Source: Rhodospirillaceae bacterium | GTDB taxonomy: Bacteria > Pseudomonadota > Alphaproteobacteria > Reyranellales > Reyranellaceae | Assembly: GCA_009772935.1 (NCBI GenBank) | Contig: WOUR01000017.1 | Location: 1 to 64,000 of the forward strand | Direction of reading: 5' to 3' | DNA: 64,000 nt | Shown here: one piece after another, positions 8,600 through 61,445 of the stretch | Layout: every line of letters begins with the position of its first letter | Numbering within the stretch: the first letter of the stretch is position 1 | Position numbers and translations under genes: made by a program | The notes under the pieces: generated by a model | Told to the model about the DNA's origin: nothing | The model's database searches: none | What the model saw: the letters and a program-made list of their open reading frames with translations, nothing else

Positions 8600-8615
8600 T
8601 GTCCAATTTGGGACT
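8600..8615. promoter_or_regulatory. Palindrome TGTCC-N6-GGAC(T), copy 1 of 5
   Basis: TGTCCAATTTGGGACT has arms TGTCC/GGAC(T) around a six-base AT-rich core. Four more copies with the same arm spacing occur at 21701, 21935, 25597 and 42264, all intergenic. It sits in an otherwise gene-free stretch (8206-8866) between the cop operon and the broken ABC transporter. It is probably a regulator binding site; the regulator is unknown. Confidence 0.55.
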
Positions 8616-10682: not shown

Positions 10683-11708
10683 TCAGCAGATCCTCGGCAA
10701 GGGATCGTGTTCGAGTTCCTCGATCAGGCGTTCACCCAATTCGGTCCTGAGTGTTACATAGCTCTCGGTCGTGATGGAGCCGACGATCGCTGCGTCTGGG
10801 CATCCGTGTTGCTGCATCGCCGCCAGTGATCGTTCAGCTGCAGCGGGCGCTACGACAGCGACTAGCCGACCCTCACTGGGAAGGATCAACGGATCAAAGC
10901 CAAGTATCTCGCAGACGCCTTTGGCCGCTTCGCTTACGGGAATATTCTGCTCATCCAGTCGAACACCGCAGCCAGTGCCGCGCAGGATATCGTGAGCGAC
11001 GGTCGCAAGGCCGCCCCGTGTGGGATCCCGCATGAAGCGCAGGCCGGGGACATCTATGAGGGCCATCGCCACTCCGACCAAGCAGCCACAATCCGAGCGC
11101 AGATTCCCCGTCAGCCCGAATTCCTGCCGAGCCAGCAGCACCGCTGCGCCGTGGTCGCCGATGGTTCCACTGACCAGCAGCCTGTCGCCCACTCGAATGT
11201 GTTCGAGGCCAAGTTTCGGCGTACGTCCCCGCACGCCGACGCCGGCCATGCCGAGATAAAGGCCGCTTCCTTCGCCCTGACGGAGAACCTTCGTATCGCC
11301 GGCGACGATCGCGGCGCCGGCAGCATGGGCGGCTCGAGCGGCATCGGCCACCAGTCGATCCAGGAGGCGGATTTCTAAGCCTTCTTCGATGAAGGCGTTC
11401 AAGGTGAGGTAGAGTGGCCTCGCGCCCATGACCGCGAGATCGTTCGCGGTGCCGTTTACGGCGAGGCTGCCGATGCTTCCGCCAGGGAATTCCAGCGGCT
11501 CGACGATGAAACCGTCGGTCGTCATCACCAACTCGCCGTTCACCGGGCTCAGCGGCGCGGCATCAACCGTGGTGTTCAAATCATCGCCAAAATGGAAGGC
11601 AAAGATGCCCTCGACCAGGTCACGAGTCAGACGTCCTCCATTGCCATGGGCCAGACTCACCGTTTGCTGGAGCAGTTCATGGCGTAGCTTGTGAAGATCA
11701 TTGTCCAT
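10683..11708 (-). CDS. hypE: HypE, carbamoyl dehydratase for hydrogenase CN ligand synthesis
   Basis: The 341-residue protein starts at the ATG at 11708, overlapping the 3' end of hypF by 11 bp. It shows the AIR-synthase-like fold signatures HGNGG, DDLNTTVDAAPLS, GDTKVL and MRDPTRGGLA, and ends in the obligatory PRIC whose Cys receives the carbamoyl group from HypF and is dehydrated to thiocyanate. It hands cyanide to HypC-HypD. It is the last gene of the hyp operon. Confidence 0.97.
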   Translation of the reverse strand: MDNDLHKLRHELLQQTVSLAHGNGGRLTRDLVEGIFAFHFGDDLNTTVDAAPLSPVNGELVMTTDGFIVEPLEFPGGSIGSLAVNGTANDLAVMGARPLYLTLNAFIEEGLEIRLLDRLVADAARAAHAAGAAIVAGDTKVLRQGEGSGLYLGMAGVGVRGRTPKLGLEHIRVGDRLLVSGTIGDHGAAVLLARQEFGLTGNLRSDCGCLVGVAMALIDVPGLRFMRDPTRGGLATVAHDILRGTGCGVRLDEQNIPVSEAAKGVCEILGFDPLILPSEGRLVAVVAPAAAERSLAAMQQHGCPDAAIVGSITTESYVTLRTELGERLIEELEHDPLPRIC

Positions 11709-13989: not shown

Positions 13990-13990
13990 G

Positions 13991-14473
13991 CTAGCTCCAT
14001 CCGCGGCGCAACAGCTGGAGGAGCTTATCGCGCACAAGCGGAAGCGATCGTTCCACTTCCGGCGAGAGCCCAACTTTGAAGTCCAGGCTCTTGGGTTGGA
14101 CGCCTATCAGGGCGCGCTCTAACGGCAGCACCTCCTGCAGGCGGGCGACATCCAGAATATCGCGCAACGCTACCTCATGGGCGGTGTGCCGCGCGCCTCC
14201 CAGCTGACGGTCCATGTCGATGCCAAGAAAGCAGCGCACCGTGCCCGGTTCTGCCGCCAAGTGTGCCGCGTCGACCACGACGAGACGGTTGCATCGCTCG
14301 ATATGCGACAACAGTTCGAATACTGCCGTGCCGCCGTCCAGAAGAAGCAGGTCCGCGGGGAAATCGGAAGCGTCCTGGGACCTAAGATAGGCAATCGCGC
14401 GAGTCCCCAGGCCATCGTCCGCGTAGGATGAATTGCCGTAACCCAGCACCAGCGTCGAGAGCCGATTCTGCAT
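13991..14473 (-). CDS. hupD: Hydrogenase maturation protease (HupD/HyaD type)
   Basis: The ATG at 14473 lies two bases after the hypD stop and gives 160 residues. The N-terminus has the family motif LGYGNSSYADDGLG, and VVDAAHLAAEPGTV supplies the second metal-binding segment. These proteases read the nickel in the immature large subunit and cut after the His of DPCxxCxxH; the large subunit at 17835-19559 carries such a cleavable tail. Its place inside the hyp operon, between hypD and hypF, is unusual compared with hupSLCD orders. Confidence 0.88.
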   Translation of the reverse strand: MQNRLSTLVLGYGNSSYADDGLGTRAIAYLRSQDASDFPADLLLLDGGTAVFELLSHIERCNRLVVVDAAHLAAEPGTVRCFLGIDMDRQLGGARHTAHEVALRDILDVARLQEVLPLERALIGVQPKSLDFKVGLSPEVERSLPLVRDKLLQLLRRGWS

Positions 14474-14475
14474 TG

Positions 14476-15603
14476 TCAGGCCGCGACGCCAGTACGCCGA
14501 TGAGGCGCGTGTGTGCGGTTGTGTAGGCCCGAGGTCCACCAGATGTGACAGGCGCCTTCGTCCGACACCATGCACGGTCCGATCGGACGTCGGGGCGTGC
14601 AGGCTTTGCCGTAGAGCTTGCAGTTCGTGGGCACCACCTTGCCCAGGACCACACGGGCGCAATCGCAGCCCGGCGGCATTTCTCCTGCGTGTCGACGGGC
14701 GGCGTCCTGTGGTGACGCCAGCAGGCTGCGCGCGTCACGGCTTGCAAAAGTTTCTGAAAGGGCAAAGCCGGAGCGGGCAATCGTGCCAATGCCGCGCCAA
14801 TTCGCATCCACGATCCGCATCGAGTGCGACAACTGCTGCTGCGCCACGCGATTGCCGCCGGGCCGTACGATCGCCGGATAGCAGTTCTTCAAGTGGGCCG
14901 TGGTCGCGAGAAGCTGCGTCAGGACGTAGTAGGTGGCGGCCAGCAGGCTTTCCGCCGTGAAGCCCGCCACGGCAATCGGCAGGCCATAGCGTTCCGCCAC
15001 GAACGACCATTCTTCCGGCCCCATCACCGTGGCGACGTGACCCGGTGCAATCAGGGCATCGAACCCTGGCTTCTCTGAAGCGAGCAGCATGTCGACCGCC
15101 GGCCAGGTCAGCCGGCCTGACACCAGGAGGAAAAGATTGTCTGGCACGCCTTGGCACAGCATCGCGGCGACCGGCGCCATCGTGGTCTCAAAGCCAGCGG
15201 CGAAGAAGACCACGCGCTTGTCCGGAAGCGCCCGCGCAATCGCCACAGCCTCCCGCGGACTGGCAATCGGCCGGATGTCGGCACCGGCGCCGCGCGCATC
15301 ACTGAGGCAACGCGGATCGCTTCTGGCGGCGTTGATCGGCACACGCAGCATGTCCCCGAACGCAACGACGACGACATCGCATTCGCGCGCAAGCCGCATG
15401 GCGTCGCAAATGTCTTCTTCGGGGCAGACACAAACCGGACAGCCCGGTCCGGGAATGATCCGAATTGTCTCGGGCAGGGCCGCCCGCAACCCGGTGTGAG
15501 ACAGCGTGCGTTCGTGTCCGCCGCAGACATTGAGAATGCTAACCGGGTGATCCAATGGCAGATCGCGGAGTCGATCCAACCAGACCTTAGCCGTGGCGCT
15601 CAT
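14476..15603 (-). CDS. hypD: HypD, Fe(CN)2CO scaffold protein
   Basis: This 375-residue protein has all the HypD hallmarks: NVCGGHE, IPGPGCPVCVCP, a GFETT motif near residue 155, and a C-terminal iron-sulfur region with CDCARVVLGK, CKLYGKACTPRRPIGPCMVSDEGAC. With HypC it assembles the iron atom with its CN and CO ligands. Its start overlaps the end of hypB by 17 bp. The last 20 residues extend slightly past the usual end. Confidence 0.97.
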   Translation of the reverse strand: MSATAKVWLDRLRDLPLDHPVSILNVCGGHERTLSHTGLRAALPETIRIIPGPGCPVCVCPEEDICDAMRLARECDVVVVAFGDMLRVPINAARSDPRCLSDARGAGADIRPIASPREAVAIARALPDKRVVFFAAGFETTMAPVAAMLCQGVPDNLFLLVSGRLTWPAVDMLLASEKPGFDALIAPGHVATVMGPEEWSFVAERYGLPIAVAGFTAESLLAATYYVLTQLLATTAHLKNCYPAIVRPGGNRVAQQQLSHSMRIVDANWRGIGTIARSGFALSETFASRDARSLLASPQDAARRHAGEMPPGCDCARVVLGKVVPTNCKLYGKACTPRRPIGPCMVSDEGACHIWWTSGLHNRTHAPHRRTGVAA

Positions 15604-16369
15604 GGGCCGACTCTCCTATGACGGTTGCCGGCTTCGCCGCTCGACGATCCAGCCGCTGCCGATCAAGCCAGTCGATCCATGGGTCAAGGCCGCCCTTGCT
15701 GCGCACCGAGATGCCGATGACGGGAGAGACACAGCCGATCTCCCGGACTGCCGCTTCCGCCCGGTCGAAACGAAAATCGTCAAAGTGCGGCAGCAAATCG
15801 GTCTTGCTGACCAGAATGATGTCGCTGCCCCGGAACATGATCGGATACTTGGCCGGCTTGTCGTCGCCTTCGGGCACCGACAGCAAGGTGACGTTCCGAT
15901 GCTGGCCAAGGTCGAACGACGCTGGGCAGACGAGGTTCCCTACGTTTTCGATGAAGAGAACATCGAGGCCCTGTAGCGGCATGTCGTGCAAGGCCGCGTG
16001 GATCATTTGCGCGTCGAGATGGCAGGCCGTTCCAGTGGTGATCTGCACTGCCGGAACACCATGTCTCCGGATTCGCGCCGCGTCGTTCTCAGTTGCGAGA
16101 TCTCCCTCGATGACGCCGATGTGCAGTCGACCTTTCAGGGCTTCGATCGTCGCTTCGAGGAGCGCGGTCTTGCCGGACCCCGGTGCCGACATAAGGTTCA
16201 CAGCGAAGACATTCGCCTCGTCTAGATGCGCCCGATTATGCTTCGCCATCCGATCGTTCTCGGCCATGAGATCGTGGAGCACGGTCAACGACCGGGGCTG
16301 ACGGCGTGGCGTTGAGTCATCGTGATCATGGCGCGAATCATGCGCCGCGCATCCACAGTCATTGCACAT
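15587..16369 (-). CDS. hypB: HypB, GTP-dependent nickel insertion protein
   Basis: The protein is 260 residues. The N-terminus contains a CxxCGC metal motif and a short His stretch (HDSRHDHDD) for nickel binding. The GTPase core follows with the P-loop APGSGKT, IEGDLATENDA, and ENVGNLVCPA, whose Cys is part of the G-domain metal site. It delivers nickel with HypA. It overlaps hypA (11 bp) and hypD (17 bp). Confidence 0.97.
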   Translation of the reverse strand: MCNDCGCAAHDSRHDHDDSTPRRQPRSLTVLHDLMAENDRMAKHNRAHLDEANVFAVNLMSAPGSGKTALLEATIEALKGRLHIGVIEGDLATENDAARIRRHGVPAVQITTGTACHLDAQMIHAALHDMPLQGLDVLFIENVGNLVCPASFDLGQHRNVTLLSVPEGDDKPAKYPIMFRGSDIILVSKTDLLPHFDDFRFDRAEAAVREIGCVSPVIGISVRSKGGLDPWIDWLDRQRLDRRAAKPATVIGESAHERHG

Positions 16370-16724
16370 GAGCTTCCTCCGCTGTTTCCAGCTCCAAGCT
16401 TTGGAAAATCAGGTCCTTCCCGCTGGCGACACGAACGTCGGCTGTATCGCAGGCCGCGCATCGCATATGACTGAGCCGGCCCGGCGTCTGCCTGCCGCAC
16501 CGGCGGCATTCGAGAATCAATGGAGCCCTCTCAATGACGAGCTGAGCGTCATTGGCGACCGTGCCTCGCCGGGCGGCAGTGAAGGCCCGTTGCAGCAGCC
16601 CCGCCTCCACCCCCGCCAAAGGTCCGATTCGGACGGTCACGGACAGGACCCTGGCCGCGCCGTGCTTTCGGGCAAAGCGAGCGACCTCGTCGAGCAGAGC
16701 CTGACATATCGAAAGTTCGTGCAC
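16359..16724 (-). CDS. hypA: HypA, nickel metallochaperone
   Basis: This 121-residue protein starts MHELSICQ, with His2 as nickel ligand, and has the zinc site made of CRRCG and CAACD. It hands nickel to the hydrogenase large subunit together with HypB. It follows hypC by 10 bp and overlaps hypB. Confidence 0.96.
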   Translation of the reverse strand: MHELSICQALLDEVARFARKHGAARVLSVTVRIGPLAGVEAGLLQRAFTAARRGTVANDAQLVIERAPLILECRRCGRQTPGRLSHMRCAACDTADVRVASGKDLIFQSLELETAEEAHVQ

Positions 16725-16734
16725 GATACTTGCT

Positions 16735-16959
16735 TCACTGTCCGGAGAGAGCTTCGTCGATCACTTGCCAAGTTGCCGCTGCGTCCGTGCCGCTGATGAC
16801 CTGGATTGCATAGCCAACGTGGACAAGTACGTAATCCCCTGCGAGGACCGAGCCCTCTTCCAGCATGAAGAGACTGACATCGCGGGACACGCCACGGACC
16901 GAGCACCGGGCGACGAACCCGTTGATCGACTCGACCCGCATCGGGATGGCCAAGCACAC
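16735..16959 (-). CDS. hypC: HypC, hydrogenase assembly chaperone
   Basis: The 74-residue protein starts MCLAIPMRV, the defining HypC N-terminus; Cys2 binds the iron intermediate on HypD and contacts the large subunit. The rest (GDYVLVHVGYAIQVI) is the OB-like fold. It lies 14 bp after the haem/LTXXQ gene, so structural and accessory genes are probably one transcript. Confidence 0.96.
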   Translation of the reverse strand: MCLAIPMRVESINGFVARCSVRGVSRDVSLFMLEEGSVLAGDYVLVHVGYAIQVISGTDAAATWQVIDEALSGQ

Positions 16960-16973
16960 GATATCCTCCTTCC

Positions 16974-17828
16974 CTAGAGGACCTCTAGGATCAATGAGAA
17001 GCGTTCATTGGCGACTTTGCGTTGCTGTTCGGTCAGGTCCGGCAGGAGCCGGGTGAAAGCCGTCGCAACGTAGCGAAGCGCCGCAATTCGCGCGGAAAGA
17101 CGCCGTTCCTGCTGGCGCACCAGGGCTACGGCGTCCAACGGCTCGTTCGAGGGCGTCTGTTCCGTGAATGCCCGGCGGTCCGCCGCTGCTGCTGAACGTA
17201 CCGATTCGGCAAAGCCAGTCCAATTCGCAGGTTCGGGCTGACCGATTCCGATCTCGTCGCGGAATCGCGTCAATCGGACTTCGACTTCTGCCGGCGCTAC
17301 TGGTTGCCGGTCGGCAACAGAAGGAGGGGCAAGGGCAGGGCGCGCAGCAGGCATGGGCATGGTATGCGGCTCTGGTGATGCTGCAGATCCCGCTCCCTGC
17401 TGGGGGGCTGGCGGGCGTCCGTGCATTGACATCGTGGGCGACCCGGAGAGCTCTCCAGTGCCGCTTGAGGGTGCCGGTTCCGCAGTGGCTGCGGAGGCAG
17501 GGGGAGAAGCCCCGGTGCTGCCGCCTGGACAGAAGAAGCTGAAGTCGCCGGTCGCCCTGCCTTTGTCGAACTCGGCCCAGTTCGGCTGAACACGATGGGC
17601 AGGAAGACTGTCGAAGGTTCCTGTCTGATGGCACATCGCACAGTGGGACTGGTGAGCCGGCACACGCAGGCGCCCTTGCGAAATGCAGTAGGTGTCGATC
17701 AAGTCGCCATAGCCTTGGCTTGGCCTTGCCATCGTTGACACGCCGCCGGCGAGGGCGAGCGTCGTGATCAGCAGCCCGGCCAAGGTCATCTTACGGTCAA
17801 GCATGCTGGTGTTCCGCGTACTCGGCAT
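16974..17828 (-). CDS. Periplasmic monohaem protein with LTXXQ-like C-terminus, in hydrogenase operon
   Basis: This 284-residue protein has a signal peptide (LAGLLITTLALAGGVSTMA), one CxxCH haem motif (CAMCH, near residue 63), a Pro/Ala/Ser-rich linker with MSMHG and MPMP, and a helical C-terminal half. That half ends LPDLTEQQRKVANERF, an LTxxQ-type motif of the Spy/CpxP class. It lies between hupL (6 bp) and hypC (14 bp), where other clusters have hupC or hupD. A role in moving electrons from HupSL or in protecting the enzyme is inferred from position; no characterised family with this exact combination is recognised. Confidence 0.75.
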   Translation of the reverse strand: MPSTRNTSMLDRKMTLAGLLITTLALAGGVSTMARPSQGYGDLIDTYCISQGRLRVPAHQSHCAMCHQTGTFDSLPAHRVQPNWAEFDKGRATGDFSFFCPGGSTGASPPASAATAEPAPSSGTGELSGSPTMSMHGRPPAPQQGAGSAASPEPHTMPMPAARPALAPPSVADRQPVAPAEVEVRLTRFRDEIGIGQPEPANWTGFAESVRSAAAADRRAFTEQTPSNEPLDAVALVRQQERRLSARIAALRYVATAFTRLLPDLTEQQRKVANERFSLILEVL

Positions 17829-17834
17829 GGCGCC

Positions 17835-19559
17835 CTAGAGGACCTTGACCTCGACAAGCTCACGTCCGCCCGGGTCGATGACGTGCACGGCGCAGGCCAG
17901 GCAAGGGTCGAAGCTGTGGATGGTCCTCAGGATCTCGAGCGGCCGCGTAGCATCGGCGAGACGATGCCCTCGCAGGGCGGCCTCATAGGGGCCATCTTGT
18001 CCCCGCGCGTCGCGCGGACCCGCGTTCCAGGTGCTGGGAACGACCGCCTGATAGTTTGCGATCTTGCCTTTCTCGATGGCAACCCAGTGTGCCAGCGCGC
18101 CGCGTGGCGCTTCCATGAACCCTGCGCCACGGGCCTGAGGTGGCCACGTTGAGGGATCGAACAGGCTGTCGTCGAACGTGGCTCGATCGCCGGCCGCGAT
18201 GTTGCGCAGCAGCGCGCTGTGCATGTCCGCGAGCGCATCAGCCAGAATCTTCGTTTCAAGGGTTCGTGAGGCAACGCGGCCCAACGTTGAGAAAAGACCT
18301 TCGATCGGCAGATCCAGCCGCTTAAGGCTGCTATCGATGAGTTCTCTCGCCTTGCGATCTCCGGTCGCATAGAGCAGCAGCATGCGCGCCAGCGGGCCGA
18401 CTTCCATTGGTTTGCCACGCCAACGCGGTGACTTGATCCAGGAATAGGAACGATCGACGTCGAGGTGCTCGTACGGTGGCTGTGGTCCCGTGTAGTTCGG
18501 GCGCGTTTCGCCATCGTACGGGTGAAGCGGCTTGTGCTTGCCGACCGAATAATCGTACCAGGAGTGGCTCACGAACTCCTGGACCTGCGCCGGATCTTCG
18601 AGATCGACGGGTAGCACCTTCGACAAATCGCGATCGAGAATGGCGCCGCGCGGAAACAACAGGGTCGACGAATTGAATGTATCGGTCCCGCGTGGAAGAT
18701 CACCATAGCATAGGAAGTTGCCGGTGCCTTCGCCTACCTTGCTCCAATCCTTATAGTAGCTCGCGATCGCCAGGGTGTCGGGTAGGTAGACGTGATCTAC
18801 GAAGTCACGCATCTTCTCGATAATGACGCCCACCTGCTTCAGGCTTGCAGCAGATACGGCCGTCACCTGCTCGCCCTCGCTGATCGTACAGGGAGCGCCC
18901 CCGACCACGAAGTTCGGGTGCGGATTGCGGCCGCCGAAGATGGCGTGAATCTTGACGACCTCGCGTTGCCACGCCAACGCCTCCAGGTAGTGGGCAAAGG
19001 CCAGCAGATTGACCTCGGGGGGCAACTTGTACTCGGGGTGACCCCAATAGCCGTTGGTGAAGATCCCGAGCTGGCCACCGTCAACAAAGCGGCGCAGTCG
19101 GTCGCGGACAGTCGCGAAATAGTCCGTGCTGTTGTTGGTCCAGGGGCTGAGAGAGCGCTGCAATCGTGACGTTGCACCGGGGTCGGCGCTGGCCGCCGAC
19201 ATCACGTCCACCCAGTCGAGGGCATGAAGATGATAGAAGTGCACCACATGGTCGTGGACGAACTGCGTCGCGATCATGATGTTGCGGATGAGCTGGGCGT
19301 TCGGGGGAATCTCGTATCCCAGAGCGAACTCGACGGCGCGCACCGATGCGATGCTGTGAACCACCGTGCACACGCCGCAGAATCGTTGCGTGAACGCCCA
19401 GGCATCGCGTGGGTCACGTCCGTTCAGGATCAGTTCGATGCCACGCATCATGGTGCCGGAGCTCGAAGCGCGGGTGATGAACCCGGAGGCATCGGTCTCC
19501 GCCTCGATCCTGAGGTGCCCTTCGATGCGGGTCACCGGGTCAACGACGATGCGCGCCAT
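17835..19559 (-). CDS. hupL: [NiFe]-hydrogenase large subunit, group 1
   Basis: The 574-residue protein carries the nickel ligands in RFCGVCTVVHS (N-terminal pair) and DPCLACAVH (C-terminal pair). Fifteen residues follow the last His and would be removed by the maturation protease. RIVVDPVTRIEGH at the start and HPEYKLPPE-like stretches fit uptake-type group 1 enzymes. It oxidises H2 in the periplasm with the small subunit. It starts 34 bp after hupS and is followed by the haem/LTXXQ gene, not by a cytochrome b gene. Confidence 0.97.
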   Translation of the reverse strand: MARIVVDPVTRIEGHLRIEAETDASGFITRASSSGTMMRGIELILNGRDPRDAWAFTQRFCGVCTVVHSIASVRAVEFALGYEIPPNAQLIRNIMIATQFVHDHVVHFYHLHALDWVDVMSAASADPGATSRLQRSLSPWTNNSTDYFATVRDRLRRFVDGGQLGIFTNGYWGHPEYKLPPEVNLLAFAHYLEALAWQREVVKIHAIFGGRNPHPNFVVGGAPCTISEGEQVTAVSAASLKQVGVIIEKMRDFVDHVYLPDTLAIASYYKDWSKVGEGTGNFLCYGDLPRGTDTFNSSTLLFPRGAILDRDLSKVLPVDLEDPAQVQEFVSHSWYDYSVGKHKPLHPYDGETRPNYTGPQPPYEHLDVDRSYSWIKSPRWRGKPMEVGPLARMLLLYATGDRKARELIDSSLKRLDLPIEGLFSTLGRVASRTLETKILADALADMHSALLRNIAAGDRATFDDSLFDPSTWPPQARGAGFMEAPRGALAHWVAIEKGKIANYQAVVPSTWNAGPRDARGQDGPYEAALRGHRLADATRPLEILRTIHSFDPCLACAVHVIDPGGRELVEVKVL

Positions 19560-19593: not shown

Positions 19594-20562
19594 CTAGAAC
19601 GGCTTTGTGTAGAAGCCGCCAGGGCGATCCCAGAAACTCGGCTGCGCACAGCCCAGACAACCGTGGCCGGAATACATTGGAAAGCTGGTCCCTTGGTTCC
19701 ACTTGATCGTCGTGCAGGCATTGAACGTTAGTGGCCCCTTGCAGCCGAGATCCTTGAGGCACCAGCCCTTGCGAGCGCCTTCGTCGTCAAAGCTGCGCGC
19801 GAACTGCTGGCGCTCGAAGAACGGCAAGCGCGTGCAATTGTCGTGAACGGTCTTGCCGAAGAAGATCTTGGGCCGGCGCAGATCGTCGAGGGCGGGAATC
19901 GAACCGTAAGTGAGATAGTAGGTGACAAGGCCTGTGATCACTTCGGGCACGGGGGGACAACCAGGAATGTTGACGATTGGAGCCGTCACCTTGCCGGCCG
20001 CCACGAGGTCGCCGAGCGCGTCTGCCGCTCCGAAAGCACCGGAAGGATTTGGTGCGGCCGCCCCGATGCCGCCAAAGGCGGCACACGTACCGACCGAGGC
20101 AATAACCGCCGCCCCTTGGGCGGCATTGCGGACCAGCGACAGGCCTGCCTTGCCTCCGGTCGTTGACCGCGCGCCCGCATCCTTTCCGGGAATTGAGCCA
20201 TCGACGATGAGGAAATACTTGCCCCAATTCTGCTCGATCGCCCGATCGCGCGCTGCCTCCGCCGCTGCGCCGGCTGCCGCTTGAAGCACGTGGTGGTAGT
20301 CCAACGAGATGGAGTCGAGGATCAGACTCTCCAGAGTTGGCTCGAAGGAGCGGAGCAGCGATTCGCTGCAGCCGGTGCATTCTTGTACCGACAGCCAGAT
20401 CACGCTTGGCCGGGGCTTGGACGCAAGAGCTTGCGCAATCACTTCCGCGCTTCCCACCGGCAAGGTCAGCACCGAGCTCATGTACCCACAGAACTTCAGG
20501 AAGCCGCGCCGTGACACACCTTGGTTTCGCAATTCTTCGTAGAGCGATGGACGGACTCCCAT
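19594..20562 (-). CDS. hupS: [NiFe]-hydrogenase small subunit, Tat-exported, no C-terminal anchor
   Basis: The 322-residue precursor has a Tat signal (SRRGFLKFC) and three cluster sites: proximal CTGC, GTCAAFGG, PGCPP; distal HDNC with GWCLKDLGC; medial NAC with GHGCLGC. The proximal motif is CTGC, not the CTCC of oxygen-tolerant enzymes, and the extra Cys after the third ligand is absent, so a standard oxygen-sensitive centre is expected. The chain ends GGFYTKPF just after the medial-cluster motif; the usual 40-50 residues with a membrane helix are missing. It may therefore be soluble in the periplasm. Confidence 0.95.
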   Translation of the reverse strand: MGVRPSLYEELRNQGVSRRGFLKFCGYMSSVLTLPVGSAEVIAQALASKPRPSVIWLSVQECTGCSESLLRSFEPTLESLILDSISLDYHHVLQAAAGAAAEAARDRAIEQNWGKYFLIVDGSIPGKDAGARSTTGGKAGLSLVRNAAQGAAVIASVGTCAAFGGIGAAAPNPSGAFGAADALGDLVAAGKVTAPIVNIPGCPPVPEVITGLVTYYLTYGSIPALDDLRRPKIFFGKTVHDNCTRLPFFERQQFARSFDDEGARKGWCLKDLGCKGPLTFNACTTIKWNQGTSFPMYSGHGCLGCAQPSFWDRPGGFYTKPF

Positions 20563-20628
20563 GGCACCGCCTCCTTCCGACTAGCGACGGTCTCTTAGTT
20601 GGCTTTTGGCGACACCAATGCGTGAGAA

Positions 20629-20696
20629 GCGATATCGCGCCCCCAGCTGAGGTTGGGGGATACTGGGGTTTACTTCAGCCAAGGACGCGATATCGC
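20629..20696. promoter_or_regulatory. Paired GCGATATCGC palindromes around a hairpin, upstream of hupS
   Basis: Two perfect copies of the 10-bp palindrome GCGATATCGC lie at 20629-20638 and 20687-20696, about 58 bp apart. Between them, 20640-20659 can form a hairpin with arms CCCCCA/TGGGGG. The block fills the gap between the Spy-like gene and hupS. It may act as operator plus attenuator or processing site for hupSL; no known factor is assigned. Confidence 0.45.
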
Positions 20697-20721
20697 CGGG
20701 GGGCCACGGTGCGCTCGCTTG

Positions 20722-21441
20722 CTACCGAATGCCCATGTGCGGCGCGATGAGTTCGTTGGCGATTTTCTTCTGCTTGTCGTCGAGCGCCGCATAGAGCTTC
20801 GCGTAGGCGGGCTTCAACGCCTTCACGCTTTCCAGGCGCACCGTGAGCCAGCGCTCTTGATCATCCAGTCGGTCGGCGGCGGTTGTCGTGGTCCGCTGCG
20901 GCTGACCCTTTTGGGCGTCCTCGACGCGCTTTGCATTCGTGCGCATAACGGTCGCAAACTCTGTCCATGTCGGCATCTGCGGTTCCGTGATCTTCAGCTC
21001 AGCATGAAGGTAGGCGATGCGACCGTCGATGTGGTCCGTGGGCAGATCCATCATGCGGGTTTGCATCATCATCTGCATCATCTGGGGGCCCATCATGGCT
21101 CCGGGTCCCATTGGTCCCGCCACTTGACCCTGCACGCCAGGACCTTGCATCGCTCCGCACTGTCCGCCAGAGCAATCACCGGGTGTCTGCATGTTCTGCA
21201 TGCCCGAGCCACCCATGTTGTGGCCTTCCATGCCCATGCTCTTTCCCTGGCTCTGCATGCCCTGGCCTTGCATGCCTTGGCCCTTCATACCCTGACCCTT
21301 CATGCCCTTATCGTCGTCCATCATCTGCGCAACGACGATCTTTGTCGGATCGAGGGTCTGCGAAGAACCGATCGCCGGGGCAAGTACGATGGTCGCCATC
21401 GTCGCTAGGCTTGCAGCAGATAAGAAGTTCATACGTGTCAT
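20722..21441 (-). CDS. Met-rich periplasmic Spy/CpxP-like protein upstream of hupS
   Basis: The 239-residue protein has a signal peptide and then a Met/Gly/Gln-rich region with repeated GMKGQ/GMQGQ units (residues about 45-70) and more MM pairs up to residue 135. The C-terminal 110 residues are helical (HIDGRIAYLHAELKITEPQ, LDDKQKKIANELI) like LTXXQ/Spy chaperones. It may bind Cu(I) or shield exported hydrogenase from metal damage. It is codirectional with hupSL, 159 bp upstream, and its C-terminal half resembles that of the monohaem protein at 16974-17828. Confidence 0.75.
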   Translation of the reverse strand: MTRMNFLSAASLATMATIVLAPAIGSSQTLDPTKIVVAQMMDDDKGMKGQGMKGQGMQGQGMQSQGKSMGMEGHNMGGSGMQNMQTPGDCSGGQCGAMQGPGVQGQVAGPMGPGAMMGPQMMQMMMQTRMMDLPTDHIDGRIAYLHAELKITEPQMPTWTEFATVMRTNAKRVEDAQKGQPQRTTTTAADRLDDQERWLTVRLESVKALKPAYAKLYAALDDKQKKIANELIAPHMGIR

Positions 21442-21700
21442 GGGAGTTCCTTTCTTCTGAAGCCAGTTTGTCAGCTACGTGGTTGCCTGCTCTTTTGCAG
21501 TGGCGCGGAACGCGGGGCAGTCGGGCGTCCTCTAAGTTGAGGCAATGCCGTTCGTGGCCAGCGACGTAGCAATATGCGTTTGAGCGGTTCCGGGCGGTCA
21601 GCGTGCTTTCACGTCAATCCCCTCTAGAGCCAGCCTTCTGGCCGTGCCGTGTCTCGTTGCGATGCATTTGAAAGTATTCGGCCAATGAGGCTGATCACGC

Positions 21701-21716
21701 TGTCCCATTTGGGACA
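21701..21716. promoter_or_regulatory. Palindrome TGTCC-N6-GGACA, copy 2 of 5
   Basis: TGTCCCATTTGGGACA is the most symmetrical copy: seven of eight arm bases pair and only the core is imperfect. It lies in the 700-bp divergent region between the hydrogenase side (minus) and the electron-conduit operon (plus). Confidence 0.6.
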
Positions 21717-21934
21717 CGTGCGCGAATTCTGCCGCGGGCTCGTACAAGGGGCATGCGCCAAAGCAATAGGCCCCGTTTCTGCGCCGGACATCTCAGGGGC
21801 CGAGGCTATTGCGGTGGGAGTGAACTCGCCAAGCTTGATGCCCTAAGCGATCGCGACAGTCCCAGGTCGAGCAGATTGAGGGGGCGCCATTGAGGGCCCG
21901 GCAGGCGGCAGATCACGCTAGAAATCTGCATATG

Positions 21935-21950
21935 TGTCTCAAATTGGACA
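21935..21950. promoter_or_regulatory. Palindrome TGTCT-N6-GGACA, copy 3 of 5
   Basis: TGTCTCAAATTGGACA has one arm mismatch relative to the other copies. It is 234 bp from copy 2 in the same divergent region and 200 bp upstream of the gene at 22150. Two sites in one control region are usual for activators that work as dimers or hexamers at a distance. Confidence 0.55.
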
Positions 21951-22149
21951 GCGCAATTCGCCTCTTTGATCAATAGACGCAGAACCGATGCGGAGAAGGT
22001 CGGGCAGCGGGCAAGGATGCTTGTAACCATGCGGGGCAGGGTTGTTCATCCTGAAGTCAACGTCGCTCGTCAATCTGTTGAAGGGGCAACGCGTGCAGAG
22101 CGTCCAGCAAAGGTGTGTCAAGAACATCGAGTAATATTGGGAAGCAGCG

Positions 22150-24102
22150 GTGAAGAGTGAATATCCGCCGGCCCGCAATAAGGCGATGCGCCGTGGCTTG
22201 ATGCTTCTGGCGGTAGCCGTTTTTGGAGGTGCAGCTCCCGCTGCTGCACAGCCCGCAGATTCCCATTCCGAGCATCATCCCGGTCAGACGCCGTCCGCTC
22301 CGTCTGCCGGCCAACCGGCACCATCATCCGCCGGCGGCATGGAGATGATGGGCTCGATGATGGGCGGCCCACCCAGAAAGCAGCTCTATCCCCAGCTGAT
22401 GGAGTTGCCGGTCATGACCCCGGAAGCCCGTCTCAAGATTGAGACGGACGCGCGAGCCCGAATTGTCACCGGCAACGCGGCACTCGTACAGGGGCAGGAC
22501 GATTATCACCGCGCTGCGATGAATAATGACGCGGCCGCAATGTCAGCCGCCTTGTCTCGCCAGCGTGCTGCGTTGGCAGAGATCGAGAGCGGCACATCAG
22601 CGTTGCGTGCGCTCGCAGAGGGGAGTCCGCCCCACGAGATTGCCTTGAGCTGGTTCCGTGACCAGATGAATCTCGCTCGGCCGACCTCGCCAGTACAAGA
22701 AGAGGTTGGACCGCTCAACCTATCTTGGTTCCACATCGTCTCCATGACGGTGGTACTGCTGTTCGCGCTGACGATGCTTGTCGTCGGTGTTGGGCGTCGA
22801 CATCGCTCGCTTGCCTTGGTCAATCGTTTGACTCGACCAGCCGGCCCCCAACCAGCGCAGGGTCGTGCGCCCGTACCGATCTCTGCCTCCCCTACGCCCA
22901 CGACTCCAGCGGTATCCCCTCCACCACCGCCGTCGACAAAGGTCCAGCAGTCACCTCCGCTACCATCGCCTCCAACGTCTATATCGACATGGTCCGGAAC
23001 GCTGCGCGTCGCCAGCATTGTTCGTGAGACACCTCTCGTAAAGACCTTCCGGCTGGTTGAGCCAGGAGGTGGCGCTATCCCGTTCTCCTATGCCCCCGGC
23101 CAGTTCTTGACTTTCTCAGCGCAGATCGACGGCAGACTGGTGCGCCGATCCTACACGATCGCCTCGCCACCAACACGGACCTCGTACGTGGAGGTCACCG
23201 TCAAGCGCGAGGAGGAGGGGGCGTATTCACGCTTCCTGCACGACAGCGTCGTGCCTGGCAGCGTGCTGCAGGTTCGTGGCCCCTCGGGTGTGTTCACCTT
23301 CGATGGGGGAAACGCCGAAAGTATCGTCCTGATCGCCGGCGGCGTCGGTATCACGCCCATGATGTGCGTGATCCGCTATCTGACGGACATGAGCTGGCCA
23401 GGCGAGATCTTCCTGATCCTTGCTGCACGGAACACCGACGAGCTGATCTTCCGTGAAGAGCTCGAGTACCTGCAGCGCCGTCATCCCAAGCTCCATGTTG
23501 TGGCGTCGGTCGGCGCGAGGTCGGAAGGATCAGCATGGATGGGCTTGGAAGGCCAGATAACGAAGGACGCACTCGCCCATGCAGTACCTTCACTAGAAAT
23601 TCGACGCGTCCACCTGTGCGGTCCACCGCCCATGATGGAGACTATACGGCGCATCCTGAGCGAATTGGGTGTGCCAGCCAACCAGGTCAAGACTGAAGCT
23701 TTTGGTCCGGCCACCGGGGCCGTGCCGCCGCCGCGTCCTCTGCCGCCCCCACCGCCACCTTTGATGGTGACGGAGCTTGTCGAGCGGGTCGAGGCTGCCA
23801 CACCTCCGTTGATGGAACCCATACCGGTGGCGGGTCCGGCGACGGCGACCATCTCCTTCGACCGGTCTCACAAATCAGCGCCTCTCCCGCCCGACAAGAC
23901 GGTCCTTGAGGTGGCGGAGTCGATCGGCGTGCCGATCGACTACTCCTGCCGCGTAGGGACCTGTGGCCTCTGCAAGACCAAGTTGCTGGCTGGTCAGGTT
24001 ACTATGGAGGTTCAGGACGCGCTGACGGACGACGATAAGGCGTCCGGGATAATACTCGCCTGCCAAGCCCATTCTCTGGGCGACATCACGGTCGACGCCT
24101 GA
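22150..24102 (+). CDS. Membrane-anchored FAD oxidoreductase/2Fe-2S ferredoxin fusion
   Basis: The GTG at 22150 has GGGAAG six bases upstream and gives 650 residues. In order: signal-like helix (13-33), Met/His-rich periplasmic part with MEMMGSMMGG, a helical domain, a membrane helix (about 193-216) followed by RRHR (positive inside), a Pro-rich linker, an FNR-type domain with RRSYT (flavin), GGVGITPMM near 396 and CGPPPMM near 490 (nucleotide), a second Pro linker, and a plant-type ferredoxin with CRVGTCGLC near 599-607. The flavin and 2Fe-2S parts would be cytoplasmic. It heads an operon with the haem-b-type and seven-haem proteins, divergent from the hydrogenase. Confidence 0.88.
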   Translation: MKSEYPPARNKAMRRGLMLLAVAVFGGAAPAAAQPADSHSEHHPGQTPSAPSAGQPAPSSAGGMEMMGSMMGGPPRKQLYPQLMELPVMTPEARLKIETDARARIVTGNAALVQGQDDYHRAAMNNDAAAMSAALSRQRAALAEIESGTSALRALAEGSPPHEIALSWFRDQMNLARPTSPVQEEVGPLNLSWFHIVSMTVVLLFALTMLVVGVGRRHRSLALVNRLTRPAGPQPAQGRAPVPISASPTPTTPAVSPPPPPSTKVQQSPPLPSPPTSISTWSGTLRVASIVRETPLVKTFRLVEPGGGAIPFSYAPGQFLTFSAQIDGRLVRRSYTIASPPTRTSYVEVTVKREEEGAYSRFLHDSVVPGSVLQVRGPSGVFTFDGGNAESIVLIAGGVGITPMMCVIRYLTDMSWPGEIFLILAARNTDELIFREELEYLQRRHPKLHVVASVGARSEGSAWMGLEGQITKDALAHAVPSLEIRRVHLCGPPPMMETIRRILSELGVPANQVKTEAFGPATGAVPPPRPLPPPPPPLMVTELVERVEAATPPLMEPIPVAGPATATISFDRSHKSAPLPPDKTVLEVAESIGVPIDYSCRVGTCGLCKTKLLAGQVTMEVQDALTDDDKASGIILACQAHSLGDITVDA

Positions 24103-24103
24103 C

Positions 24104-24784
24104 ATGGGCGACAAAGAGCGAGTTGTCGTCCTGGCGCTCGGAACACTGCTGCTCTTCCTTGCGCCTGGCTATCTCTTGCACGTTTCGCCGCGCTTTGCGG
24201 GCAGCCTGGCCGGCGGAGTACTGGGGATCATGGCAGCAACTTTCATGCTGCTGGCGCTCGTCTACCCCGCCGTCAAGTACATCGGTTGGCTGAAAGTTCG
24301 CGTGACGCGGCATGTTTCGCTGGGCCGCCTTCTTAGCTTCCACATCTACGGCGGGCTTCTAGCATCCCTGATTGCCATCCTGCATTCGGGACACAAATAT
24401 CAAAGCGGCCTGGGCATCGCGCTGATTGCGGATATTGTGATTGTGATCGGGACGGGCTTTATCGGCCGTTACTATCTTGCACATCTCGGGACGGAAGTAC
24501 GCCGGCAGCAGGCGCTGCTCGGGACGTTACGCACGGCCTATGATCGCATCGCGCTTCACCTCGGGCGCCAAGCCACTGTCGGCGCAGCCGCACCGGATGT
24601 CCCTATCCTGACACTCGTCGATGCGATTGCAGACATCGAATACTCGCTCGGGATGCGCGACACCGCCAAACGTATCGCCGGTCGATGGATTGTCGTCCAC
24701 ATCGTCGCGTCGATTCTAATGTACGGGCTCCTGTTGCTGCATATCGGCGGAGGAATCTATTATGGGCTGCGGTGGCTTCCATGA
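24104..24784 (+). CDS. Haem-b-type membrane protein (ferric-reductase-like)
   Basis: This 226-residue protein has about five membrane helices. Two of them carry paired His: FHIYGGLLASLIAILHSGH and VVHIVASILMYGLLLLHIGGG, with spacing suited to two stacked b haems crossing the membrane. It starts 1 bp after the FAD/2Fe-2S gene and overlaps the cytochrome gene (ATGA). The arrangement suggests it passes electrons between the periplasmic cytochrome and the cytoplasmic flavin domain. No specific family is recognised with certainty. Confidence 0.75.
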   Translation: MGDKERVVVLALGTLLLFLAPGYLLHVSPRFAGSLAGGVLGIMAATFMLLALVYPAVKYIGWLKVRVTRHVSLGRLLSFHIYGGLLASLIAILHSGHKYQSGLGIALIADIVIVIGTGFIGRYYLAHLGTEVRRQQALLGTLRTAYDRIALHLGRQATVGAAAPDVPILTLVDAIADIEYSLGMRDTAKRIAGRWIVVHIVASILMYGLLLLHIGGGIYYGLRWLP

Positions 24785-25521
24785 AATGGAAGGCGCTTAT
24801 TTACCTGTTGCTTGTAACGGTGACCGTCGCCAGCTCTATCATGGCTGTCGGTACCGTCTATCGTAAGGGATCGGCAAGCTTGCCTCACTGGGCGACATTG
24901 GTGAGGCCGGGCGCCCTTTCAACCAAGCACGCCTTTCTCTCCAATCAGTGCGAGGCGTGCCATACGCCGGTCAAGGGCGTGGAAGCCGCAGCCTGCATCT
25001 CATGTCATGCGGCCGATGCCACGACGCTCGCCCGCGAATCGACGGCCTTTCACGCGACCATTCAGACCTGTGCGACATGCCACGTCGAGCATTTGGGTGA
25101 AGTCCGTCCGACCCGCATGGACCACGATGCTCTGATCGCAATCGGGCGCTCGAGGCTCGTGAACCAACCGTCTCCCTGGTTTGCGTCACTGTCGGGTCAC
25201 GCGCCCGCTGACTTGGGCACGCTCGATTGCTTCGCCTGTCACAGCAACCGCAGTCCGCACCGCGACCTGTTCGGTAAGGAGTGCGCTGCCTGCCATTCGA
25301 CGGCGACGTGGAATGTGGCGGGCTTCAAACACCCGTCGCCCAGTTCGACCGAGTGCGCGCAGTGCCATCAAGCCCCGCCCAGCCATTACATGGGTCACTT
25401 TGAGATGGTCTCGGAGAAGGTGGCGGGCCAGGAGCATGCCCGGGTCGAGCAATGCTATCTCTGCCATCAAACTGATGCTTGGAACGACATCAGGGGGGTG
25501 GGCTGGTACAAACATCACTAA
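24781..25521 (+). CDS. Seven-haem periplasmic cytochrome c
   Basis: The ATG at 24781 overlaps the preceding stop. The 246-residue protein has an N-terminal signal or anchor helix (ALIYLLLVTVTVASSIMAVG) and seven CxxCH motifs: CEACH, CISCH, CATCH, CFACH, CAACH, CAQCH, CYLCH. Extra His residues for bis-His ligation are plentiful. Such c3/c7-like proteins accept electrons from periplasmic hydrogenases in sulfate reducers. Here it is the plausible partner of the unanchored HupSL. A degenerate copy of its C-terminus lies at 41415-41541. Confidence 0.9.
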   Translation: MKWKALIYLLLVTVTVASSIMAVGTVYRKGSASLPHWATLVRPGALSTKHAFLSNQCEACHTPVKGVEAAACISCHAADATTLARESTAFHATIQTCATCHVEHLGEVRPTRMDHDALIAIGRSRLVNQPSPWFASLSGHAPADLGTLDCFACHSNRSPHRDLFGKECAACHSTATWNVAGFKHPSPSSTECAQCHQAPPSHYMGHFEMVSEKVAGQEHARVEQCYLCHQTDAWNDIRGVGWYKHH

Positions 25522-25596: not shown

Positions 25597-25612
25597 TGTC
25601 CCAAATTGGACA
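25597..25612. promoter_or_regulatory. Palindrome TGTCC-N6-GGACA, copy 4 of 5
   Basis: TGTCCCAAATTGGACA is the copy with the longest arms: the symmetry extends to GATGTCC/GGACATC over 20 bp. It lies 76 bp past the seven-haem cytochrome and about 290 bp before the DUF2933 gene. A possible -24/-12 element (TGGCATG and GC, correct spacing) occurs near 25761-25776. No gene is seen in 25522-25899. Confidence 0.55.
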
Positions 25613-28960: not shown

Positions 28961-29671
28961 TCAATCCATTTCGCCCAATCGTCTCAGACGAGAATGCACC
29001 TTGATTGTGCCGGGCGGCGTCCGGCCTCCGTATTCGATTAGGTTGAGACGCCTGAACTTGTTCAGGAAGTAGTTCACTCGCGGACGCGTTGAGCCGATGA
29101 GATTTGCCAGCATCTCCTGCTTGACGTTCGATGTGATGCCGAAGTCGCGACTCCCGTTGCCGACGTTGGCAAGTTTGAGCAGTACGCGCGCCAAACGCTG
29201 TTCGGCCGATCCGACGAGCTGATCAATCAAGGCGGCTTCGGTTTCGAGGCTGTGTGCAACCAGAAATGCCGTAAACGCGCCAGCGAGGTCTGGCCACTCC
29301 CGGAGCAAGTTGGGCATCAAGCTCCTATCGATCCTCGCGATTTCAGCGTCTTCAACGACAACGGCTGATGTAGTGCGATACGGCTTGTTCGCGAGGCATT
29401 CCTCGCCACAAAAATCACCGGGGCCGAGGATTGCGACGAGACGGTCGTCGCCTTTCTCGGTCGTCACTAACCGGTGCACTTGTCCGTACCCGATGTAAAA
29501 GATTGCATCCGCTGGATCCCCCTGGCGGAACAGGGGGCGGCCTGCTGAGTACCTCATATGTGGAAACTGGACGCAAAGCTTTGCTTGCGAACCGTTGACG
29601 TACGCCCGCTTGAGAGGGACATCGTCCAAGTGTTCAATCCCGCTCGACGGACCAAGTGTCTGCTCGCCCAT
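28961..29671 (-). CDS. Crp/Fnr-family transcriptional regulator
   Basis: The frame is open to 29899, but the ATG at 29671 gives 236 residues, the standard length. A cyclic-nucleotide-type barrel (RPLFRQGDPADAIFYIGYGQVHRL, GDFCGEECL) is followed by a winged helix (SNVKQEMLANLIGSTRPRVNYFLNKF). It lacks the N-terminal Cys set of FNR. GDFCGEECLANKPYRT resembles a subgroup of alphaproteobacterial Crp-like proteins. The target is unknown; the adenylate cyclase at 38862-40271 could provide its ligand. Confidence 0.85.
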   Translation of the reverse strand: MGEQTLGPSSGIEHLDDVPLKRAYVNGSQAKLCVQFPHMRYSAGRPLFRQGDPADAIFYIGYGQVHRLVTTEKGDDRLVAILGPGDFCGEECLANKPYRTTSAVVVEDAEIARIDRSLMPNLLREWPDLAGAFTAFLVAHSLETEAALIDQLVGSAEQRLARVLLKLANVGNGSRDFGITSNVKQEMLANLIGSTRPRVNYFLNKFRRLNLIEYGGRTPPGTIKVHSRLRRLGEMD

Positions 29672-29949
29672 TCTCCGAAGAGGGTCCGTGACGGGACAAG
29701 GTTTGGTTTCAAGCGCGCGGTGGCGAAGTTGACTGATGGGCGGATTTGGGCAGACGCATGGGAGAGCGTCATGCCTCGATGACAGTGGAGATTTCATAGC
29801 TGAGCCATGGTCTAGAAGGGAGAGAAGCGCGAATGATGCGGCGCACGAATCATCCGATCCGTGTCGTCCCTCAAATGGTCGCACGCGAATCACCAACACC
29901 GATGGCCTAAGGAGCCACCGAGCTTCTGGCTTGCACTACGACGATTTGA

Positions 29950-41414: not shown

Positions 41415-41541
41415 TGGGCGATTTCGACATTGCTGCCTATTAGCCGGTCAACCTCATGCCCGCGTCGAACAGTGCCATCTTTATCACCAGACGGAGGCCT
41501 GGAACGACATCCAGGGTGTCGGATGGTATAAGCGCCATTAG
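41415..41541 (+). pseudogene. C-terminal remnant of a seven-haem cytochrome gene
   Basis: HARVEQCHLYHQTEAWNDIQGVGWYKRH followed by TAG copies the end of the protein at 24781-25521 (key residues: HARVEQC, HQT-AWNDI, GVGWYK). The last haem motif CYLCH has become CHLYH and can no longer bind haem. Upstream LGDFDIAAY aligns with the parent but in another frame. Confidence 0.75.
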
Positions 41542-42263: not shown

Positions 42264-42279
42264 TGTCCAATATTGGACT
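42264..42279. promoter_or_regulatory. Palindrome TGTCC-N6-GGAC(T), copy 5 of 5
   Basis: TGTCCAATATTGGACT has fully complementary cores and arms TGTCC/GGAC(T), extending to GTGTCC/GGACTC. It lies in a 350-bp gene-free interval (42059-42407) between the lipoprotein gene (minus) and the broken CC-x-VACHAA gene (plus). Confidence 0.55.
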
Positions 42280-61259: not shown

Positions 61260-61445
61260 CTCGACTTCGTATCGCAAATGCGACTCTCTCGCAATGACGG
61301 TTGCGCTGACTGAATGATCGAGCCGCCCACGCCTTCATGCAATTCAGTCGACAGGCGACTGCGCTTTGCACTCGTTGTGCGAGGGAAGCCTGGGCGACCT
61401 CTTGGGGGTCGAGATTGAATACCGGCTTCGATGTAGTGGTTAGGT

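Follow-up and report, generated by a model that had tools for sequence, protein, structure and literature searches.

How a periplasmic [NiFe] hydrogenase without a membrane anchor passes on the electrons that it takes from H2 is the question raised by a stretch of 64,000 nucleotides from a Rhodospirillaceae bacterium (assembly GCA_009772935.1, contig WOUR01000017.1, positions 1 to 64,000), which is referred to here as the window and which belongs to a 166 kb contig of a 6.01 Mb genome. The minus strand of the locus carries, in this order, spy, hupS, hupL, a gene for a one-haem LTXXQ protein, hypC, hypA, hypB, hypD, a maturation protease gene, hypF and hypE. Divergent from these, the plus strand carries genes for a protein with flavin adenine dinucleotide (FAD), NAD and 2Fe-2S domains, a membrane b protein and a heptahaem cytochrome c, followed by DUF2933 and ICMT-type methyltransferase genes. 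The first three plus-strand genes (genes 1, 2 and 3) are collectively named the conduit in the current work; an earlier note on this DNA had seen in them a possible route by which electrons from periplasmic H2 enter the cytoplasm. That interpretation is found here to be half right. A wire is present, the customary partners of the hydrogenase are lost and the two recur together, yet this wire is a general one and probably an exporter. The explanation which we favour, at a probability of roughly 0.43, is that under metal stress HupSL and the conduit deliver electrons to a single haem pool in the periplasm.

Putative Isp-type descent of an anchorless hydrogenase

HupS carries a twin-arginine translocation (Tat) signal with the motif SRRGFLKF and stops 10 residues past the final cluster motif without a hydrophobic tail, which bears out its earlier description as exported and anchorless. 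The reported absence of hupC also stands, as none occurs among those window proteins (part of the open reading frames, ORFs) that were searched against Pfam, and no protein of the genome, which is 98% complete, matches the hydrogenase cytochrome b family TIGR02125 over its cut-off (best scores 34 and 28.6 bits versus 121.5). Homologues of isp1 and isp2 were not found in the window by tblastn. The proximal cluster motif of HupS is ECTGCSE instead of the oxygen-tolerant ECTCCSE. Among solved structures, 3myr, which we take to be the Allochromatium vinosum hydrogenase, is closest to HupS in sequence. With the labels 1d and 1e being assigned in the current work from motif, tree and isp genes, an ordinary HupSLC enzyme of group 1d was ruled out by the sequence motif, the HupL tree and the lack of a HupC over the cut-off in the genome. 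Group 1d enzymes have a Tat-exported HupSL as the window does, whereas the window enzyme has neither ECTCCSE nor an anchor, and the ECTCCSE rows (taken as 1d) stand at 50-57% HupL identity.

Among the 14 genomes nearest in HupL besides the window's own (64-70% identity, within a phylum sample of 398 genomes), 12 carry both isp1 and isp2, and the remaining two have hupL at a contig start; Methylovirgula and genome G621 (G and L numbers being our labels for genomes and loci) also carry both genes. In the window, where 34 bp separate hupS from hupL, and in five relatives, namely G030 (HupL 93% identical), SupBloom, AWTP1-5 and BTAi1 (about 75%) and a Xanthobacteraceae metagenome-assembled genome (MAG; 73%), hupS and hupL are adjacent and no isp gene occurs, nor does one occur for Alteromonas and Glaciecola, the search for the relatives being confined to the hydrogenase loci. 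A hydrophobic HupS tail is present in all 13 Isp-type HupS proteins read and in none of the eight Isp-less rows. On the HupL tree (44 rows, in which the Alteromonas type is represented by Glaciecola, on a long branch) the window's HupL is nested in a clade of 22 rows, of which 14 have isp, seven are Isp-less and one has no known state; Isp-less enzymes occupy two places on this tree, and trees requiring a single change make up 0 of 200 bootstraps.

On this sequence evidence the hydrogenase appears to be a member of the Isp-type (1e-like) radiation, stripped of isp1-isp2 and of the HupS anchor, and these were lost at least twice, in the window clade and in the Alteromonadaceae. This loss of Isp and of the HupS tail in two lineages is the strongest support for replacement of the Isp partner by something. 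Group 1e enzymes, such as Thiocapsa Hyn and that of Allochromatium, are like the window HupSL in HupL placement and in their standard proximal motif, but possess Isp1, Isp2 and the C-terminal HupS anchor, none of which the window enzyme has. As far as the accessible text of the sources goes, Isp1/2 of Thiocapsa serve electron transfer (PMC3102683), and the HydDB table gives 1e enzymes as Isp-type, mainly associated with sulfur respiration and physiologically reversible (PMC5037454). With Isp1/Isp2 and the anchor lost, HupSL must hand its electrons to a periplasmic carrier. The gene for a one-haem protein, with one CXXCH kept, lies beside hupL in all six members of the window clade. A different possible hydrogenase-reductase pairing, of other architecture than the conduit, was seen in locus L254 (450-4635), where a maturation protease gene and one for a 2Fe-2S/FAD reductase carrying an N-terminal Fer2 come after a 1e-like hupL.

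Anatomy of the conduit proteins

The FAD and b genes are 1 bp apart and the b and c genes overlap by ATGA, the likely start of the cytochrome gene being 24781 and its listed ORF start 24685. Of the three overlapping genes previously described as divergent from hupS, the divergence is real, but only b and c overlap, the order is FAD-b-c and spy lies between hupS and the conduit. The one-haem protein encoded next to hupL is absent from that earlier description.

Gene 1 encodes the Pfam domains FAD_binding_6, NAD_binding_1 and a C-terminal Fer2, preceded by a signal-like helix (residues 16-34) and a transmembrane helix (196-214, within 193-228) that is followed by GRRHR. Given the position of this GRRHR, the catalytic part should be cytoplasmic, in agreement with the earlier note. 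A periplasmic Met/His-rich helical domain spans about 79-172 (91-172 in the model) and matches no Pfam family over cut-off. The AlphaFold model has a mean predicted local distance difference test score (pLDDT) of 76 and a predicted template modelling score of 0.45, most ten-residue blocks of 281-520 being near or above 90. The second-best fold match of the reductase is phthalate dioxygenase reductase (2pia), and reductases of that type have the same flavin, NAD and C-terminal 2Fe-2S order and fold as gene 1, which is unlike them in being fused to a signal/transmembrane anchor and the periplasmic domain. In this family electrons pass from NAD(P)H to flavin, then to 2Fe-2S and to the partner. 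Considering that this domain order places the 2Fe-2S between flavin and acceptor, the 2Fe-2S would face haem b and the flavin would face NAD(P); the sequence of flavin followed by 2Fe-2S that had been drawn for inward flow at the cytoplasmic end is the wrong way round.

In the gene 2 protein, H26, H80, H94, H97, H199 and H213 are invariant, both in a set of 23 diverse sequences and in one of 42. Two helices bear one His pair each, as had been noticed before, and the members of each pair, H80/H94 and H199/H213, are 14 residues apart. Two haems b are predicted, one between H80 and H199 and one between H94 and H213, and the charge distribution puts H80 and H199 at the cytoplasmic side. A spacing of 14 residues between His ligands is a mark of the ferric reductase/NOX family, and cytochrome b shows the same spacing. 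Gene 2 is like the ferric reductase/NOX domain in having such pairs on two helices wired to an FAD/NAD domain, and unlike it in having five helices, the reductase on a separate polypeptide, a heptahaem c partner and a score below the cut-off of PF01794 (Ferric_reduct; 11.1 bits versus 28, E 0.44). No family was retrieved for gene 2 at E<=0.001 in Pfam or NCBIfam. Its model (pLDDT 81.7) gave no Foldseek match at E<=0.001, where the absence of a family proves nothing, and the fold rows of SpNOX (Z 8.6) and STEAP1 (Z 8.4) stand amid unrelated helical rows of equal Z and not above background. A sequence search of the PDB with the b profile and the c protein returned no significant match. The seven CXXCH motifs of gene 3, the count of which agrees with the earlier one, recur in 91 of 95 gene 3 proteins; the four exceptions are short readings with 54-186 residues.

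The conduit as a recurrent module of copper islands

The hydrogenase and the conduit sit on a mobile copper-resistance island, being surrounded by conjugation genes (VirB8, CagX, TrbI), copper genes (CusF-like, multicopper oxidase (MCO), CopB, heavy-metal ATPases and a metal-sensitive repressor) and resistance-nodulation-division efflux genes. Contigs of Reyranella and of Enhydrobacter aerosaccus ATCC 27094 also have an identical b gene. Relatives of the b gene are encoded by 247 stretches of the genome collection, of which the best 80 loci were analysed; the b gene is flanked on either side by 9.5 kb or more in 42 of these and by 5 kb or more in 56. The FAD, b and c genes occur together in all 80 loci, and this conservation, combined with that of the seven haems, excludes chance. 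The conduit was found in several proteobacterial classes and in Bacteroidota, while locus L074, labelled Nitrospirae, may be a binning error. Gene 2 occurs in 12 of the 76 genomes of an order sample and matches 52 plasmid records; on an even class sample, for which at most seven first-look candidates were scored per genome, the conduit is rare (at least 3 of 385 genomes, the window's own included).

In the flanks examined of the best 80 loci, tblastn detected MCO in 27, CopB in 17, copper ATPase in 16, Spy in 40 and DUF1622 in 31. Where annotation is available, the conduit lies in copper or heavy-metal islands, namely in Rhizorhabdus, Bradyrhizobium, Legionella, Roseomonas (with gene 1 annotated as two pieces and no more than a fragment of the cytochrome), Sphingomonas, Methylophaga, Variovorax, Spirosoma, Sphingobium and Salinimonas; in Methylocystis no copper gene lies in the annotated stretch around the conduit. 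The pentose-phosphate gene zwf is near the conduit in 14 of the 80 loci, or in 5 of 61 clusters at 95% cytb identity. As a side observation, genes of this pathway (zwf, gnd, tal) recur at less than 10 kb from the conduit in L025, L076, L106 and L126, as if supplying NADPH.

Complete hupSL genes lie beside the conduit in L061, L084 and L092, hupS stands at a contig end in L063, and L075 has hypE in the conduit flank with hupL further on. In L062 (6018-6461, the place of L034 13861-14304), a near-identical island of a Reyranella MAG, hupS is cut to 148 residues and no hupL was found in the genome; a conduit copy 96-100% identical to that of the window sits in a genome with its hydrogenase reduced to a hupS fragment. 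The conduit of Salinimonas lies beside a hypE remnant, with no hydrogenase subunits in the annotated stretch. This remnant, together with the hupS fragment of G067, whose genome has no hupL, argues that the conduit is useful alone. The three-gene unit is a general recurrent module of copper islands and not a hydrogenase part. In substance it is widespread without hydrogenase, a finding which the earlier note itself had named as speaking against its proposal.

Recurrent pairing of conduit and hydrogenase

In Alteromonas and Glaciecola the three-gene unit directly precedes the hydrogenase genes within the same gene cluster. Five of the six members of the window clade (window, BTAi1, SupBloom, the Xanthobacteraceae MAG and AWTP1-5) have the conduit at a distance of 0.7-9 kb from their hydrogenase operon, a rate which is biased, as SupBloom, the Xanthobacteraceae MAG and AWTP1-5 were first reached via the conduit. 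Both Isp-less hydrogenase lineages are conduit-linked, and the pairing recurs. At least nine of the 52 conduit plasmid records also carry the window hydrogenase type, these being that of BTAi1, seven from Alteromonas and one from Glaciecola. Of the genomes scanned for both, all three with a window-type HupL have a conduit, a biased count since all were reached via the conduit, versus 7 of 38 genomes of the family sample with another HupL (<=67% identical), one match being weak (E 2e-16). In five of these seven the conduit is on a contig other than that of HupL, in G732 it is 0.8 Mb off, and the weak match, in G687, is about 32 kb from HupL. The conduit as a common feature of hydrogenase genomes was rejected, as it occurs in 0 of 12 alphaproteobacterial genomes with a more distant HupL, a comparison with no positive control.

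The accessible text of PMC3102683 gives the Alteromonas hydrogenase as expressed from orf1/cyt/orf2/hynD/hupH/hynSL/hyp, and that of PMC4781885 places hydrogenase and metal resistance on one island of the Alteromonas plasmid. Matched here by gene order, orf1 and cyt would be conduit genes 2 and 3. The plasmid hynSL cluster of Alteromonas and Glaciecola (orf1-cyt-orf2-hynD-hupH-hynSL-hyp) is like the window in having the three-gene unit beside an anchorless, Isp-less hydrogenase on a metal-resistance island. It runs head-to-tail in one run with orf2 between, whereas the window is divergent with spy between; no homologue of the window's one-haem protein was found in it, the two HupL proteins are on separate branches of the tree, and the b and c proteins are 33-43% identical. 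The earlier statement that no described alphaproteobacterial hydrogenase is known with this set is not supported, since the unit heads this cluster, though the latter is gammaproteobacterial and, in the accessible text of PMC3102683, no electron-transfer role was tested. Titles and abstract starts of the literature found, through searches of which several were narrow, assign no role to the three-gene unit.

A palindrome common to both operons

The copper operon, spy-hup, the conduit and DUF2933 are each preceded by a palindrome of 16 bp, TGTCC-N6-GGACA (Table 1), and a further site lies at 42264. Allowing at most one mismatch, 10 sites occur in the genome, five of them in the island, and the only two perfect sites are both in the island; the pattern read backwards has five genomic sites, about the off-island number. 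The pattern was derived from two of the counted sites, which leaves three independent ones among the five in the island, so that the enrichment p of 1e-9 overstates. The palindrome probably marks an island regulon, and the hydrogenase and conduit may share a control site. Its 5-6-5 spacing fits a Crp-family protein, and the Crp-like protein of Table 1 is, as a conjecture, a candidate reader.

Looser versions (at most one mismatch) are scattered in many loci, for example at 13140 in the G030 conduit locus L045, and four are clustered in L105. Perfect, different palindromes lie upstream of spy-hup or hupS in G030 (L049 8356-8371) and in L063 (449-464), in the place taken by TGTCC-N6-GGACA in the window, and presumably resemble FNR boxes. 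The hup/conduit intergenic region yielded no sigma-54 promoter at the threshold used, and no sigma-70 promoters or terminators.

Direction and destination of the electrons

According to the explanation which we favour, the conduit would act as an NAD(P)H-fed electron exporter, electrons passing from NAD(P)H to FAD and 2Fe-2S in the cytoplasm, to haem b (H80/H199), to the second haem b (H94/H213) and to heptahaem c in the periplasm. It probably runs outward, because of the homology of the reductase, whose relatives carry names of NAD(P)H-driven reactions; this reverses the inward direction proposed before. HupSL would be a hydrogenase that has become soluble in the periplasm, with Isp-type (1e-like) enzymes as its ancestors, and its electrons would go to the one-haem protein encoded after hupL as the simplest carrier, which would pass them on to heptahaem c or to further redox proteins of the island. 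A single periplasmic haem pool for metal or redox detoxification would thus receive electrons from either H2 or NAD(P)H, and the data contain hints that H2 and cellular reductant feed one electron pool outside the membrane. The conduit link may be reversible in principle, in which case electron flow from H2 to NAD(P)+ could occur, although this is not the default reading.

A number of observations weigh against such a shared pool, in addition to the bias in the linkage rate. Hydrogenase genes are present in the examined flank of only 6 of the 80 best loci, one of these a decayed hupS, a lower bound considering the short flanks of many loci; of the pairing proposed earlier, the recurrence in two lineages holds, and a bond specific to hydrogenase is not supported. 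G030 has no conduit in the 25 kb to the contig start or in 24 kb downstream of its hydrogenase, the nearest one on that contig beginning about 33 kb away. On the module tree, built by a quick method from 76 of 95 loci and with long branches for L029 and L054-L058, hydrogenase-linked conduits are scattered (7 changes, with 115 of 500 shuffles as low), and no dedicated hydrogenase-partner lineage was found. Among the 19 near-duplicate, truncated or short-contig rows left out of this tree are two hydrogenase-linked ones, L061 and L023, which duplicate the window and L029, as well as L059 from Salinimonas, which has no hydrogenase and is also close to L029. The order sample holds only three genomes with a window-type HupL, one being a clone of the window, and G017 is not counted as its HupL is of another type (53% identity). 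Co-occurrence in that sample amounts to 2/2 versus 9/73 (p 0.02) once the clone is removed, and to 1/1 (p 0.14) without the window too. Alteromonas sits on a long branch (0.4) of the HupL tree. Outside the window, the exact palindrome occurs only in near-identical copies of its island, and it is absent from other hydrogenase loci. The one-haem protein is at least as good a first acceptor as the conduit. Finally, the accessible text of PMC3102683 reports Orf1 and Cyt as not needed for maximal HynSL activity in E. coli; the assay of that paper itself used methyl viologen. As a side observation, G030 (a 7.8-Mb MAG with 8% contamination) has seven b-gene matches on five contigs (L008, L016, L018-L022), two being pieces of one gene and one a short partial, which leaves about five copies.

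Hydrogenase and conduit could alternatively be separate cargoes of the copper island with no functional link, HupSL feeding the one-haem protein and an ordinary respiratory chain, and the conduit serving copper/redox homeostasis alone. This is a serious contender, if a doubtful one: the conduit mostly occurs without hydrogenase and persists beside a decayed hupS or, in Salinimonas, a hypE remnant, linkage is scattered on the module tree with G030 unlinked, and the one-haem gene travels with hupSL. It accounts less well for the loss of Isp and anchor in two separate lineages that are both conduit-linked, for the contiguity of the cluster in Alteromonas and Glaciecola, for the palindrome common to both operons, and for the excess of conduits, biased as that count is, in genomes with the window-type HupL. 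We consider it unlikely, on the other hand, that a mobile copper-island conduit replaced Isp1/Isp2 of a 1e-type hydrogenase at least twice, the anchorless enzyme becoming a soluble plug-in donor, and couples periplasmic H2 to cytoplasmic NAD(P)H, in either direction, under metal stress.

Still less credence is given to the inward chain in its corrected form, in which electrons would pass from H2 through HupSL, haem c, haem b, 2Fe-2S and FAD to NAD(P)+ and charge the cytoplasmic NAD(P)H pool. Its anatomy is complete, Isp-less HupSL need a new partner and have the conduit as a recurrent neighbour, and the H2/H+ couple is more reducing than NAD+/NADH; the names of the reductase's relatives, the usual absence of hydrogenase beside the conduit and an island setting that suggests export of reductant all speak against it. 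A redox valve, with NAD(P)H electrons leaving through the conduit and HupSL evolving H2 when acceptors are lacking, would suit the reversibility of 1e enzymes in the HydDB table, yet H2 evolution from NAD(P)H is energetically uphill at ordinary H2 pressure, which makes this reading highly improbable. What remains of the originally proposed transmembrane conduit beside the hydrogenase is a plausible wire, recurrently linked in two hydrogenase lineages, and not one specific to hydrogenase.

Features of the locus

Two further features were noted in the window. The DNA at 41440-41538 (+) encodes 33 residues that match the C-terminal end of the heptahaem cytochrome with 79% identity and may be left over from a second copy of the module, and L034 has a similar stretch at 454-558. 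An FTR1 iron permease fused to a cytochrome c domain is encoded at 59325-61277 (-).

Table 1 Features of the hydrogenase and conduit locus, in window positions
Feature	Position	Strand	Basis
Palindrome TGTCCAATTTGGGACT, predicted operator of CusF-like/MCO/CopB operon	8600-8615		pattern scan
hypE	10683-11777	-	named from sequence alone
hypF	11698-14073	-	named from sequence alone
Maturation protease, hupD-like; true start probably internal	13991-14662	-	Pfam
hypD	14476-15603	-	Pfam
hypB (cobW/HypB/UreG domain)	15587-16369	-	Pfam
hypA	16359-16724	-	Pfam
hypC-like ORF	16735-16959	-	named from sequence alone
Exported one-haem (CAMCH) protein with LTXXQ C-terminus, directly after hupL	16974-17828	-	Pfam, motif
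hupL, [NiFe] hydrogenase large subunit, apparent Isp-less branch of 1e-like radiation	17835-19559	-	Pfam, HupL tree
hupS, Tat signal, proximal motif ECTGCSE, no C-terminal anchor	19594-20562	-	sequence, Pfam
Spy/LTXXQ periplasmic protein, upstream of hupS in same direction	20722-21441	-	Pfam; order shared with G030
Palindrome TGTCCCATTTGGGACA, predicted operator of spy-hup operon	21701-21716		pattern scan
Palindrome TGTCTCAAATTGGACA, predicted operator of conduit operon	21935-21950		pattern scan
Conduit gene 1: signal/transmembrane helix, periplasmic domain, transmembrane helix, cytoplasmic FAD-NAD(P)-2Fe-2S reductase	22150-24102	+	Pfam, AlphaFold model, phthalate dioxygenase reductase-like fold, charge pattern
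Conduit gene 2: five-helix membrane protein, two predicted haems b	24104-24784	+	invariant His, model
Conduit gene 3: membrane-anchored heptahaem cytochrome c	24781-25521	+	seven CXXCH, Cytochrome_C7 (Pfam)
Palindrome TGTCCCAAATTGGACA, predicted operator of DUF2933-ICMT	25597-25612		pattern scan
Crp/Fnr-family regulator (cNMP_binding, HTH_Crp_2)	28961-29899	-	Pfam

Implications

Even without coupling to hydrogenase, the conduit represents a recurrent copper-island module whose membrane subunit stays below the thresholds of Pfam and NCBIfam. Alteromonas macleodii has already been cultured and its hynSL cloned, so the question of coupling is directly testable. If the coupling were true, a generic electron wire that spreads horizontally would be able to take the place of the membrane partner in group 1 hydrogenases, and H2, NAD(P)H and periplasmic haems would be connected by a route encoded on metal-resistance islands.

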